Below are positions 4,851 to 37,464 of a stretch of 64,000 nucleotides of DNA, in pieces. Each line of letters opens with the position of its first letter. Within the stretch, counting starts at the first letter, position 1. The position numbers were made by a program, and so were the translations under genes. Under the pieces are notes generated by a model, which was given only the letters and a program-made list of their open reading frames with translations, was not told where the DNA came from and did no database searches. Source of the stretch: Companilactobacillus farciminis KCTC 3681 = DSM 20184 (GTDB lineage Bacteria > Bacillota > Bacilli > Lactobacillales > Lactobacillaceae); the NCBI RefSeq assembly GCF_002706745.1, contig NZ_CP017702.1, forward strand, positions 1,736,001 through 1,800,000, read 5' to 3'.

Positions 4851-4898
4851 ATCGGTGGTAACATGCCGTCCTCCATAGCAAAGCAAATTTGGCTGGAA
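4851..4898 (+). repeat. Structured intergenic repeat copy C, left part (split by IS)
   Basis: The segment has the repeat's 5' end (CCGTCCTCCATAGCAAAG, then TTTGGCTGGAA) and stops exactly where the IS begins. The rest of the copy resumes after the IS at 6595. The three bases GAA at 4896-4898 are repeated at 6595-6597 and are the target duplication. See the copies at 15098, 36719 and 37007. Confidence 0.85.
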
Positions 4899-4953
4899 TG
4901 CACTCTGCCTTGTCAAGTTGACATTTCAATAGAGTTAAAATTATAAAACATAT

Positions 4954-5847
4954 TTAAATGGCTTTATTCCGGTATTCCGCTGGAGTAAAGCCATTTATTT
5001 TGTCTGATCTATCTTGATTGTTAAAGTAATCTATTCCTTCTTTAACTAGATTCTTCAACTCTTCCAGCGTAGCTGGTGTAGGATGAAGATCCATCCAACG
5101 TAATTTAAAATCGTTCCACCAGCGTTCCATTGGTGAATTATCATAAGGAGTCCCTGGTCTGGACATACTTCTAGAAACTTTATGTTGTGCTAGTAATTTA
5201 TTAAAACTGTTAGCTACATAAGCTGACCCTCGGTCCGTATGGACCATAGGGTGCACGTCTCCTTCATTTTTAAATACTTCTTCAAACATGGTCATTTCAG
5301 CTTCTGCCGTCTCAGTGGGTGTTATTATGTATCCCAATAGAAAACGTCCATAAAGATCCAATATTCCACTTAGTCGTACTTTGTATCTTTTATTTGGTCC
5401 ATATTCTATTTGTGTTGAATCTGTTAGCCAAACTTCATTTGGCTTAGTAACTTTAAAATTTTGATCTAAGATATTATCTTGAATATATTTTTCTTCTTTT
5501 TCTTTTCTATTTATCTTTTTCTTCCGTACTTTACAAACAAGATTCAATTCATTCATTACTCTTCTTACTCGTTTTAATGATAATTTAAATCCTAGTTTAT
5601 TTTCGTGTATAAGATGAGTAAGTATTTTACCTGCTCCAACACTTCCATTGTGTTCTTCATATATTCTCTTAACATGTTTTTTTAGAGTTCTGTCTTGTTT
5701 TTCCCAGACAGTTTCTTTACGATTAATGCTTTTGTGATAGGCTTGTCGACTGACACCTATGTACTCTAATAGGATAGTTTCCCATCCATGATGGCTTTGA
5801 CATACTTCCTTTATCGCTTGGTAAGCATGCCTATGCTGTTTGTTCAC
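4954..5847 (-). CDS. IS3-family transposase orfB (DDE integrase core)
   Basis: 297 residues with an HTH_21-like N-terminal part (residues 40-95) and an rve-type DDE domain. The catalytic residues are visible as D in VWLTDSTQIEY (near 142), D in MVHTDRGSAY (near 204) and E in DNSPMERWWNDFK (near 240). The frame opens at a GTG overlapping the orfA stop as GTGA and is preceded by GGGGA, so it could be translated alone. The usual product is an OrfAB fusion made by -1 frameshifting at the A8 run upstream. The end of the gene contains a hairpin (TAAATGGCTTTA pairing with TAAAGCCATTTA) that may act as a terminator. Confidence 0.92.
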   Translation of the reverse strand: MNKQHRHAYQAIKEVCQSHHGWETILLEYIGVSRQAYHKSINRKETVWEKQDRTLKKHVKRIYEEHNGSVGAGKILTHLIHENKLGFKLSLKRVRRVMNELNLVCKVRKKKINRKEKEEKYIQDNILDQNFKVTKPNEVWLTDSTQIEYGPNKRYKVRLSGILDLYGRFLLGYIITPTETAEAEMTMFEEVFKNEGDVHPMVHTDRGSAYVANSFNKLLAQHKVSRSMSRPGTPYDNSPMERWWNDFKLRWMDLHPTPATLEELKNLVKEGIDYFNNQDRSDKINGFTPAEYRNKAI

Positions 5848-6524
5848 TCCCCACGCTGGATTTCTTCGAATTTTTTTTCAAAAGCCTCTATAGCGTTACG
5901 TTTATTTAATTCAGCCTTTAATTGTCTATTTTCTAGTTTTAATTTATCAACTTCTGTTAAACTCTTTTCTTTGACGTAACCTCTGCGTCCTCGCTTATCA
6001 GCGAGGGCAGAGTATCCTTGTTTCTTCACGATTAATACCCAATTGCGTACTTGTTGATAGGAAACTTGAAAATGTTCCGAAGCTTCAGAGTATGAATGTT
6101 TTTGAAGAGTTACGTATTCAACTACTTCAATTCTTTCTTCAAGAGTGGTTTTCTTCGACATTGTAACGACCTTCTTTCTAACAGGCGTAGCCTTGATTAG
6201 ATTCTTGTCATTATTATACTGTATTATCCAATATCTCAATTGTTTAGAAGAACGTAGTTTAAACTTTATAGATACTTCTTTAAGAGTCCCTTCGCCATTA
6301 AGATAAGCACTGACAGCTTGAATCTTAGTCTCATAACTATATTTCTTGGGAACTTGAGGGATTAATCCCTTTTCACCGTATGCTTGAAATAAGGTAAGCC
6401 AACCTCTAGCAGTAATAGGATTAACTCCGATTGATCTGCAATATTCTGTAAATATTATTTCTGACTTTACTTTCAAATAGTCTTTAATTATTTTTATCTT
6501 GAACTCTGATTCGTACTTCTTCAT
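5844..6524 (-). CDS. IS3-family transposase orfA (helix-turn-helix)
   Basis: 226 residues that bind the IS ends. Repeated helix-turn-helix units are visible: YCRSIGVNPITARGWLTLF (near 30-48), VSIKFKLRSSKQLRYWI (near 85-101) and ASEHFQVSYQQVRNWV (near 148-163), followed by a C-terminal coiled coil/leucine-zipper segment (VDKLKLENRQLKAELNKRN). I chose the ATG at 6524 because AAGGGA lies seven bases before it; an ATG at 6548 has no such site. The protein is longer than the orfA of IS150 (about 173 residues) owing to the extra HTH. It overlaps orfB by 4 bp. Confidence 0.9.
   Translation of the reverse strand: MKKYESEFKIKIIKDYLKVKSEIIFTEYCRSIGVNPITARGWLTLFQAYGEKGLIPQVPKKYSYETKIQAVSAYLNGEGTLKEVSIKFKLRSSKQLRYWIIQYNNDKNLIKATPVRKKVVTMSKKTTLEERIEVVEYVTLQKHSYSEASEHFQVSYQQVRNWVLIVKKQGYSALADKRGRRGYVKEKSLTEVDKLKLENRQLKAELNKRNAIEAFEKKFEEIQRGE
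5871..5878 (-). promoter_or_regulatory. Slippery A8 run for -1 frameshift OrfA to OrfAB
   Basis: On the reverse strand orfA reads TTT GAA AAA AAA TTC. The A AAA AAA heptamer in the zero frame allows slipping back by one, after which reading continues AAA ATT CGA in the orfB frame without a stop until the orfB end. In the orfB frame the first stop upstream (TGA) lies just before the run, so the frames overlap precisely here. This is the standard IS3-family arrangement. Confidence 0.75.
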
Positions 6525-6594
6525 AAAAAAATCCCTTCTGATTTTCATCTGAAATTATTCCATTTCATATGTCAACCACAAAGGGAGTATAGCA

Positions 6595-6749
6595 GAACAA
6601 TGTGGGCACGACTTGGAGCCTTTGCTAAGCCCAAGACCGGGCAAAGTCTTCAAGCTCGACCTTATTCTAAGCAATAAATTGCTAAGAATAATTTCACATT
6701 TGAGCCAATTTGCTTTGCTATTCCGGACTAGATTAATAATTATCTTTTT
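6595..6749 (+). repeat. Structured intergenic repeat copy C, right part
   Basis: The remainder of the IS-split copy, starting with the second GAA of the target duplication. Helix P2 pairs CTTGGAG/CTTCAAG and CTTTGC/GCAAAG; helix P3 pairs TTATTCTAAGCAA/TTGCTAAGAATAA; the closing arm CACATTTGAGCC...GGACT pairs with the left part beyond the IS. The lower helix is AATGTG/CACATT here, against GTAGTG/CACTAC in copies A and B, with the same GGAAC/TG internal loop between helices. Confidence 0.85.
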
Positions 6750-14965: not shown

Positions 14966-15097
14966 AATTTATATCCTCTATATCCTCTGGTAATATCAAC
15001 ACCTGATGATATAATAATTTTTTCAAAATATAAAATAAAACGAATTTTGAGACCTATTACAAATTTGGTTTATTTTATATTTTAATTAGTGGTAATA

Positions 15098-15263
15098 TTC
15101 CGTCCTCCATAGCAAAGAAAATTTGACTGGAACGTAGTGGGCACGATTTTGAGCTTTTGCATAAACCAAGTGCGCAAAATCTCAAAACTCGACCTTATTC
15201 TAAGCAACAAGTTGCTAAGAATAAATTCACTACTGAGCCAATTTTCTTTGCCATTCCGGACTA
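15098..15263 (+). repeat. Structured intergenic repeat copy A (intact)
   Basis: About 166 bp, differing from copy B (36719) at two positions that I can see. It folds as a long closing helix P1 (GCAAAGAAAATTTGACT with the arm ending AATTTTCTTTGC), a conserved asymmetric internal loop GGAAC/TG, a lower helix GTAGTG/CACTAC, then two hairpins: P2 (CGA, TTTTGAG and TTTTGC pairing with GCAAAA, CTCAAAA and TCG, with a bulged C) and P3 (TTATTCTAAGCAAC/GTTGCTAAGAATAA, one mismatch). It sits between the 5' end of the antiporter gene and the 3' end of the MFS gene. No open frame explains it. Confidence 0.88.
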
Positions 15264-15298: not shown

Positions 15299-15356
15299 TA
15301 GCATCTATATTTTAGAATAGCCCAATTTTTTGAGGACCATCCTTAATATAGATGCC
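15299..15356. terminator. Terminator hairpin between repeat A and the MFS gene
   Basis: GCATCTATATT and AATATAGATGC pair across a loop of about 30 nt, with T-rich tails on both strands. It can end the MFS gene transcript on the reverse strand. It lies about 45 nt after the 3' end of repeat copy A. Confidence 0.65.
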
Positions 15357-36244: not shown

Positions 36245-36679
36245 ATGGAAAAATATTATATAGTTGATAGCTCTATTCTTCCGGAATCATTTGAAAAAGT
36301 TATTGAAGCACGTAACTTATTGGAAACAAAAAAAGTCCACAACGTTAGCGAAGCCGTCAAAGTCGTAGGCATTAGTCGTGGAACTTATTATAAATATAAA
36401 GATTTGGTTTTTAAGCCTGACGAAGAAAGAAACGAGCGCAAAGCTGTAATTTCAATGATGCTCAAACACCAACAAGGAACGCTCTCCAAAGTTCTAGTTG
36501 ACATCTCTGAATTGAACGCTTCTATCTTGACTATCAACCAAAACATCCCTATTCATAACATTGCGACCGTCGTCATTTCCTTAGATATCAGTCATCTAAA
36601 CGGAACTATGGACGATTTGATCGATAAACTACAATTGTCTGACGCCGTAGAAAATGTGCAGTTAGTTGCGATCGAGTAA
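36245..36679 (+). CDS. pheB: UPF0735 ACT-domain protein (PheB-like)
   Basis: 144 residues. The N-terminal half resembles a helix-turn-helix (VSEAVKVVGISRGTYYKYKD, near 34-53) and the C-terminal half is an ACT domain (KHQQGTLSKVLVDISELNAS, near 75-94), the architecture of UPF0735 proteins such as PheB/YszB. These proteins are thought to bind amino acids; the function is not firmly known. A TAAGGAG site precedes the ATG. Repeat copy B begins about 40 bp after the stop. Confidence 0.85.
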   Translation: MEKYYIVDSSILPESFEKVIEARNLLETKKVHNVSEAVKVVGISRGTYYKYKDLVFKPDEERNERKAVISMMLKHQQGTLSKVLVDISELNASILTINQNIPIHNIATVVISLDISHLNGTMDDLIDKLQLSDAVENVQLVAIE

Positions 36680-36718
36680 GCTCTCTTGTTTCTTTCTTAA
36701 CTTCGGTTAGTAATAAGA

Positions 36719-36886
36719 TTCCGTCCTCCATAGCAAAGAAAATTTGGCTGGAACGTAGTGGGCACGATTTTGAGCTTTTGCATAAACCAAGTGCGCAAAA
36801 TCTCAAAACTCGACCTTATTCTAAGCAACAAGTTGCTAAGAATAAATTCACTACTGAGCCAATTTTCTTTGCTATTCCGGACTGGA
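36719..36886 (+). repeat. Structured intergenic repeat copy B (intact)
   Basis: About 167 bp, almost identical to copy A (15098); I see an A to G change in TTTGGCTGG and a C to T change in CTTTGCTATTCC. The stems are those of copy A: closing helix with GGAAC/TG internal loop, GTAGTG/CACTAC, then P2 and P3. The near identity of A and B, over 21 kb apart, contrasts with unrelated flanks and points to recent spread or conversion. Confidence 0.9.
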
Positions 36887-36921
36887 TAGTGGTTCTATAT
36901 TTTTTTATGATCAAACATATA

Positions 36922-36972
36922 AACATCAATTCAGATAAATGGTTATCAACTATATCTGAATTGATGCTTTTT
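36922..36972. terminator. Terminator hairpin between repeats B and D
   Basis: CATCAATTCAGATA and TATCTGAATTGATG form a perfect 14-bp stem with a loop of about 15 nt, followed by T6 on the + strand; an A/T-rich tail on the other side allows action on the reverse strand. It lies 35 to 40 nt after the 3' ends of both repeat copies, which converge on it. Confidence 0.78.
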
Positions 36973-37006
36973 TGATTTACTTGAAATAAATAATAAAAAA
37001 CATTTT

Positions 37007-37166
37007 CCAGTCGGTAGTGGCAGCTTTGTGGATGCTCAGTACTGAAATTTCACTTAGCAATTTATTGCTTAGTGAAAGGTCAAGCTTTAAGACAGTTCCC
37101 GATTCTGGAATTGGCTTAAAGTTGTACCCAGTACGTTCCAGCATCCACAAAGCAGAACGGACGACG
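37007..37166 (-). repeat. Structured intergenic repeat copy D (inverted, diverged)
   Basis: On the reverse strand it reads GTCCGTTCTGCTTTGTGGATGC...GGAACGTACTGGG...CACTAAGCAATAAATTGC...CAGTACTGAGCATCC. The primary sequence of the stems differs from copies A and B but every helix is kept: GCTTTGTGGATGCT/AGCATCCACAAAGC, GTACTG/CAGTAC, CTTTAAG/CTTAAAG with CAA/TTG and the same bulged C, and TTTCACTAAGCAA/TTGCTAAGTGAAA. Many paired positions change on both sides. Confidence 0.85.
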
Positions 37167-37192
37167 ACATCTAAGGATAACCTAAAATTAAG

Positions 37193-37232
37193 AAAGGACC
37201 CTCTCTTTTTGAGGGCTTTTTATTTTGGCCAC
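37193..37232 (-). terminator. Terminator of the small membrane protein gene
   Basis: GAGGG and CCCTC flank a loop of A/T, with AAAAAGCCCTC on one side and a TTTTTATTTT tract on the other strand. The stem is short but lies directly after the stop at 37220 in the reverse direction. Confidence 0.6.
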
Positions 37233-37372
37233 GCAATGTACATGGCAATTAAGACATTTACTGTTCCAAAAGTGAATAAACATTTCGACATAAATCGATT
37301 TTTAACATGGTTTCCATAAAATACTAAAAATAGCCCGAGGACAAAAATAATTATCATCCATAAAAAGTTCAT
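37220..37372 (-). CDS. Small membrane protein of 50 residues
   Basis: A complete frame from ATG 37370-37372 to TAA 37220-37222 on the reverse strand. The product has two predicted membrane helices: FLWMIIIFVLGLFLVFY (residues 3-19) and TFGTVNVLIAMYIAWP (residues 34-49), joined by the basic loop GNHVKNRFMSK. TAGGTGA precedes the ATG by four to seven bases and a terminator follows the stop. I do not recognise a family. The spacing, ribosome site, terminator and clean helix pattern make it credible, although the reading frame is short. Confidence 0.62.
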   Translation of the reverse strand: MNFLWMIIIFVLGLFLVFYGNHVKNRFMSKCLFTFGTVNVLIAMYIAWPK

Positions 37373-37464
37373 TGCGTCACCTACCATTTAAGATTTCTAT
37401 TCAAGTGATACTTTAAAGGATAAATGTGACTAAATAATGAATTTGTTATGGAGAATCTGTTCTT

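Follow-up and report, generated by a model that had tools for sequence, protein, structure and literature searches.

MITEs are short, repeated sequences that have no transposase gene but carry TIRs and are flanked by a target duplication. Recognition of a DNA hairpin is known from attC sites. In the available text of PMC3733652, REPs are palindromes of 20-40 bp with an unpaired GTAG or CGTC tag, and the accessible part of PMC3116915 presents REPINs as inverted doublets with compensatory changes, of which singlets are the remnants. The IS3-family elements IS1397, ISKpn1 and ISPsy8 insert into REPs (5/5 for ISPsy8), as described in the available portion of PMC1525189. In the part of the L. farciminis genome note at hand, palindromic repeats are mentioned for CRISPR alone (PMC4574373), and no description of the repeat family reported below was found in searches of an open-access library.

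Four copies of an intergenic repeat (A, B, C and D) had been described from the letters alone in the window, the whole 64-kb stretch of DNA analysed here. All four were confirmed at the positions given by this sequence-only reading, and among the genome matches the window has these four arms alone. However, B and D are two arms of one unit and not independent copies. Arm B (36722..36883, plus strand, type I) and arm D (37009..37166, minus strand, type II), both delimited by profile match and sharing the same Y-shaped three-helix fold, are the inverted arms of a single 513-bp insertion at 36688..37200. This unit consists of a left TIR (36688..36709, plus strand), arm B, a linker hairpin, the inverted arm D and a right TIR (37179..37200, minus strand); the inner limits of the TIRs are approximate, and the two have 1 and 2 mismatches to GGTTCTTTCTTAACTT. 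The linker hairpin (36924..36966), defined from its sequence, is terminator-like and is followed by a T run at 36968-36973. The extent of the unit is given by its TIRs, its target duplication and an empty site: in G003, G031 and G012, three near relatives, both flanks match and the stretch between them is missing. At the empty site, directly 3' of an ACT-domain gene, these relatives have a terminator hairpin. In the host this native hairpin, which lies behind the gene at 36245-36679, is interrupted, with the 7-bp sequence CTCTCTT on each side of the insertion (36681..36687 and 37201..37207). Two distant relatives have arms of their own between the two genes that flank B and D, one (L131, genome G024) at about the B/D position and the other (L137, genome G029) closer to the right gene.

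Arm A (15101..15263, plus strand, type I, profile match) is single and has the same Y-shaped three-helix fold. It is followed by a linker hairpin of its own at 15301..15355, recognised from the sequence, and a decayed left TIR can be seen by eye near 15067. Linker hairpins of other units differ in sequence but, by eye, retain their pairing. Arm C is split into a 5' part (4867..4898) and a 3' part (6595..6730), both on the plus strand and located by profile match.

Both TIRs had no more than 3 mismatches in 5/14 units of the host genome (B/D, 749k, 1187k, 1831k and 2408k), while in units with type III/IV arms the TIR was not clear by eye. Perfect duplications flanked four of the 14 units (B/D, 7 bp; 749k, 10 bp; 1187k, 9 bp; 1734k, 10 bp). 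Another five had one mismatch in a duplication of 7-8 bases, two of these being T runs, and the remaining five had two or more mismatches; the unit ends were set by best match with small shifts permitted, and at least the 1694k end was misplaced. An empty site was found for one unit, B/D. Close arm pairs in the host were convergent in 24/24 cases, although in one of these two truncated arms overlap and in another the partner is weak; the other arms were single. Among neighbouring arms in relatives, 26 of 31 were convergent, 5 tandem and none divergent. The solo units at 1831539-1831910 and from 1694557 on retain TIRs and have lost most of one arm, and the unit at 2408969-2409121 has lost both arms. 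A crude ORF caller gave both neighbours for 62 of 70 units, and the gene context of these was convergent in 17, tandem in 36 and divergent in 9.

No named REP or MITE family had been recognised in the earlier reading, and no named family was found here either, although the B/D unit, with its TIRs, duplication, empty site and REPIN-like inverted pairing, has the features of such elements. It is 513 bp long, its interior consists of the arms and the hairpin with no transposase gene, and its arms have 96 matches in the genome. The family thus resembles MITEs in being short, repeated and free of a transposase gene, with TIRs and duplications of 7-10 bp, and a host ISL3 type that shares the unit's first bases and has 8-bp duplications likens it to an ISL3-type MITE. 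It differs from MITEs in that its interior is made of two folded, seemingly selected arms and in that the mobilising transposase is here a candidate. Compared with REPINs and BIMEs as they appear in the available parts of PMC3116915 and PMC3733652, the family is likewise extragenic and present in many copies, forms inverted doublets with a linker, leaves singlet remnants and shows compensatory changes; its arms, like REPs, are targets of an insertion sequence. As far as the same texts describe REPINs, the differences are that the arms here are about 165 nt long with a three-way junction rather than one hairpin of 20-40 nt, and that TIRs and a target duplication are present in a host in which no Y1 transposase was found. 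Unlike the CGTC-tagged REPs in the accessible text of PMC3733652, the GTC of the arm's CGTC start pairs with GAC, so only the C is unpaired. The bcr1 repeats of the Bacillus cereus group, compared by description alone from the available parts of PMC6542083 and PMC2267715, are similarly limited to one lineage, of similar size and copy number, with mobile traits and a predicted common fold, but their mobility is tied to a TTTAT motif. The family is best read as a REPIN/MITE-like element, set apart from the known kinds by its large branched arms.

To follow the family through the genome and its relatives, a check that the earlier reading had proposed, a covariance model (R1) was built on alignment A1, which comprises 39 copies of the host. 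When 150 of 1051 candidates in the 2.55-Mb genome of the host were scored, R1 gave at least 96 matches with E no higher than 0.01, 3 of them short and weak. Searches by blastn with B gave at least 46 host matches (40 of 104 candidates scored) and with D at least 50 (40 of 77 scored), the latter mostly at places that B had matched. The arms are unevenly spread on the host chromosome, with 15/96 in 0.75-1.75 Mb and 39/96 in 0.25-0.75 Mb. When 36 Companilactobacillus genomes and 24 genomes outside the genus were searched with stricter filters and 48 candidates scored per genome, R1 matched 34/36 of the former (the host among them; G007 and G034 had no match) and 0/24 of the latter. At this depth, 22 of the 36 had at least 27 arm matches and 12 had 1 to 18. 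When the number of scored candidates was 150, each of 12 relatives gave between 29 and at least 150 arm matches, and three of them gave at least 150. A protein neighbouring the repeats, used as query, gave 7 loci, all in Companilactobacillus, with C. formosensis the nearest (94%), and plasmid and phage records had no match to the repeats.

The claim of a conserved, covarying three-helix fold was strongly supported. Arm A alone folds at -51.8 kcal/mol (z -4.9) and arm D at -64.1 kcal/mol (z -7.0), both as had been described, and in each case 0/200 shuffles reached as low an energy. From its ends inwards, the arm consists of an outer stem, a type-specific stem, GCT/AGC, the GGAAC/TG loop and P1, followed by P2 and P3 at the three-way junction. 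RNAalifold predicted 49 pairs on A1, with double changes in 32. The outermost block GTCN/NGAC covaries too in A1, which makes the arm a closed structure; this block and the outer stems belong to the arm but were absent from the helices first listed. A second alignment (A2), fitted to the model, comprised 87 matches from 75 loci of relatives (85 distinct rows). Here 95.1% of cells were paired, vs 65.5% when shuffled and 31-43% with slid partners, and the covariation score was 0.689 vs 0.183. Double changes were found at 45/48 pairs, and all four Watson-Crick pairs were present at 27/48. The outer stems, whose partners lie up to about 160 nt apart, had 93-97% of cells paired. An independent alignment of the A2 rows, of which 80/87 were left after a length filter and removal of duplicates, gave 32 pairs, 29 of them with more than one Watson-Crick type. 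The mismatches within the stems are retained in relatives as well: the P2 C-T mismatch has C in 81/81 and T in 80/81 sequences, and the P3 A-A mismatch has A in 84/84 and 82/84. The unpaired elements are less uniform than the earlier reading had held. In the four copies of the window the GACC junction does not vary, but elsewhere it reads GGCC, GGTC or GGGC, and the GGAAC loop is absent by eye in some species. At four loci of relatives (L112, L117, L119 and L209), a variant arm with an extra hairpin near the junction was seen by eye, in which the GGAAC loop is missing. A protein-coding repeat was rejected as an explanation: some copies have one open frame, but subtype indels (2 nt in the type I P2 loop) break it.

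A fold of this kind could belong to a structured RNA family, in which the arms would be transcribed, as a 3' UTR element or a small RNA, and the fold selected in the RNA. Strong covariation and a stable fold agree with this explanation, as do arms that lie, by eye, close behind stop codons in some cases. G-U pairs are tolerated in RNA folds, A-C mismatches far less so. In A2, 77 G-U and 100 A-C were counted among 3851 cells, and in the independent alignment of relatives 33 G-U and 36 A-C among 2534. RNase P, taken as a control from 30/36 Companilactobacillus genomes (host not among the 30), had instead 280 G-U (9.6%) and 6 A-C (0.2%) in 2909 cells; picking its pairs by RNAalifold biases them toward G-U, but the arms were treated likewise. 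The fold energy of RNase P was -97.4 in sense and -64.8 in antisense, while that of the arms was -35.6 and -40.7 in A2 and -41.8 and -43.5 in A1. Since the arms fold no worse in antisense than in sense, the pairing is strand-symmetric. Because G-U does not exceed A-C in relatives, unlike in the RNase P of the genus, the branched fold of the arms seems to be kept at the DNA rather than the RNA level. The host-only set is less clear, and its excess of G-U over A-C, which favours an RNA, is a point against the DNA-level reading. There were 60 G-U and 36 A-C among 1872 cells of A1, with 50/60 G-U cells coming from three pairs, and A-C was in excess at 11 pairs and G-U at 6; with the RNAalifold pairs the counts were 99 G-U and 36 A-C of 1911, including an invariant G-U within the GGAAC loop. 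No sense 3'-UTR bias of the arms was seen: among the 41 single-arm units for which the crude ORF caller gave both neighbours, the upstream neighbour was co-directional 18 times and opposed 23 times. The arms had no match at gathering score in Rfam 15, in line with the earlier reading, which had recognised no named RNA in them; when E values as high as 5 were allowed over 36500-37400, all matches were far under gathering scores and were judged to be chance. On this evidence a structured RNA family is unlikely, and the earlier view that compensatory change here marks a selected RNA structure was not supported, given the missing G-U excess in relatives, the equally good antisense fold and the opposite behaviour of RNase P. 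The covariation had been taken as a mark of RNA, but what points to DNA is the comparison of G-U with A-C counts, with an RNA of the genus as control; this test could be applied to other repeats described as structured RNA.

Strand-symmetric covariation would also be expected from neutral upkeep, in which template switching during replication and exchange of hairpin blocks between copies preserve the pairing with no selection on the fold, and P2 and P3 variants do appear by eye to be shuffled block-like between arms. However, the C-T and A-A mismatches, kept in at least 80 of 81-84 sequences, count against mere palindrome repair, because repair should erase them, and the outer stems remain 93-97% paired across distances of up to about 160 nt, which makes neutral upkeep a very improbable explanation. 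Movement of a REPIN/BIME in single-stranded form by a Y1 transposase (RAYT), although it would account for the inverted doublets with linker, the single-arm remnants, the many copies and the strand-symmetric pairing, is likewise very improbable and was rejected for the host. PF01797, present in 18/36 Companilactobacillus genomes, was not found in the host, G003 or G031, all three copy-rich, but was found in G007, which has no arm match. The perfect duplications at four units speak for a DDE enzyme, and the arms are about 165 nt long, not 20-40.

The repeats are probably the arms of a non-autonomous, composite, REPIN-like MITE in which the arms may act as folded DNA. The composite MITE is the well-supported part of this reading, and recognition of the arms by a protein as folded DNA is its least certain part. 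The full unit would be about 510 bp in the order TIR, arm, linker hairpin, inverted arm, TIR, and a DDE transposase, possibly of ISL3 type, may move it via the TIRs. It may often insert into or beside rho-independent terminators, in which case the linker hairpin could stand in for the terminator broken by the insertion. With less assurance, the arm might function in a folded DNA form, either a hairpin or a cruciform containing a three-way junction, of which a putative mobility or host protein would read the retained C/T and A/A mismatches together with the GGAAC loop and the ends CGTC...GACTA. Such recognition would explain why selection on pairing is alike on both strands. That these repeats amount to a new class of mobile DNA, namely a unit with TIRs and TSD whose two inverted three-way-junction arms are under equal selection on the two strands and are read as folded DNA by a Companilactobacillus protein, is a more tentative proposal, judged less likely than not. 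If true, such an element would combine a MITE of DDE type with the recognition of hairpins as in REPINs or attC sites, and selection on a DNA fold would become measurable through the absent G-U signature.

The target of the units was assessed from their joined flanks, which rebuild terminator-like hairpins for B/D, 749k, 1187k, 1734k and 1831k, with 579k at the foot of one. A fixed terminator rule was positive for 6/14 units (B/D, 1187k, 1734k, 1831k, 579k and 660k) and missed 749k, whose joined flanks form a longer hairpin with a T run. The same rule scored 4/6 ISL3 copies vs 77/300 random non-ORF positions of the window. Because the random sites also score, the preference of the units and of the ISL3 copies for terminators is suggestive, not firm, and targeting as a firm rule was dropped.

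As to the enzyme, a DDE type is indicated because four units have perfect duplications. One host ISL3-family insertion sequence, present in four copies (453324, 1059204, 1303944 and 1322531), has the ends GGTTCTAAAC and GGCTCTTTGTC, also given as GGTTCT and GGCTCTTT, and an exact 8-bp TSD in 4/4 copies. By eye these copies lie in or near hairpins, 3/4 by the terminator rule, and no TSD was seen in two copies of another host ISL3 type. The length of the duplications and the first bases of the unit resemble ISL3 and suggest an ISL3-type enzyme, so that a transposase of this type is a possible mobiliser. Agreement between the TIRs of the unit and of ISL3 extends over the first 6-8 bases alone, and ISL3 was rejected as the donor of identical TIRs. 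No autonomous element bearing the unit's TIR was found in a search with a 16-mer at up to 3 mismatches. This search gave 90 matches vs 139 for a reversed control pattern, and TIR matches were therefore used near arms alone.

The arms are themselves the target of another element. The IS3-family insertion sequence within arm C (4899..6594, minus strand; 1696 bp) was defined by its orfs and the TSD GAA, the second copy of which starts the 3' part of the arm. Its two orfs, both on the minus strand, are at 4954-5847 (NF033516 over cut-off, rve) and 5844-6548 (HTH_Tnp_1). Five near-identical copies are present in the host (350414, 376526, 1740898, 2239314 and 2512621), and 5/5 are inserted in the GGAAC loop as CTGGAA|IS|GAAC with the TSD GAA and in identical orientation to the arm; the arm of the fifth has a deleted core. 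Genome G024 has two insertions at the identical arm site: a relative of 79% (L177), for which both junctions are present, and a fragment of 72% (L188), which lies at the end of a contig and has the left junction alone. Judged by junction sequence rather than model match, 3/3 left junctions in G035 read CTGGAA|TG; in G001 1/6 did so. Six distant cousins (4 in the host, 1 in G024 and 1 in G009) had no arm on the left flank. Like IS1397, ISKpn1 and ISPsy8 in the accessible part of PMC1525189, this IS3-family element inserts into a palindromic repeat, but here the host is a lactic acid bacterium and the insertion site is the GGAAC loop within a large branched arm. To the interspersed repeats is thereby added a Gram-positive family whose arms are large and branched, whose mobile unit is defined and which has an insertion sequence as a parasite of one arm loop. 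Elsewhere in the window, the sole Rfam match at gathering score was a T-box leader at 723-961 on the minus strand (RF00230, 97.6 bits).
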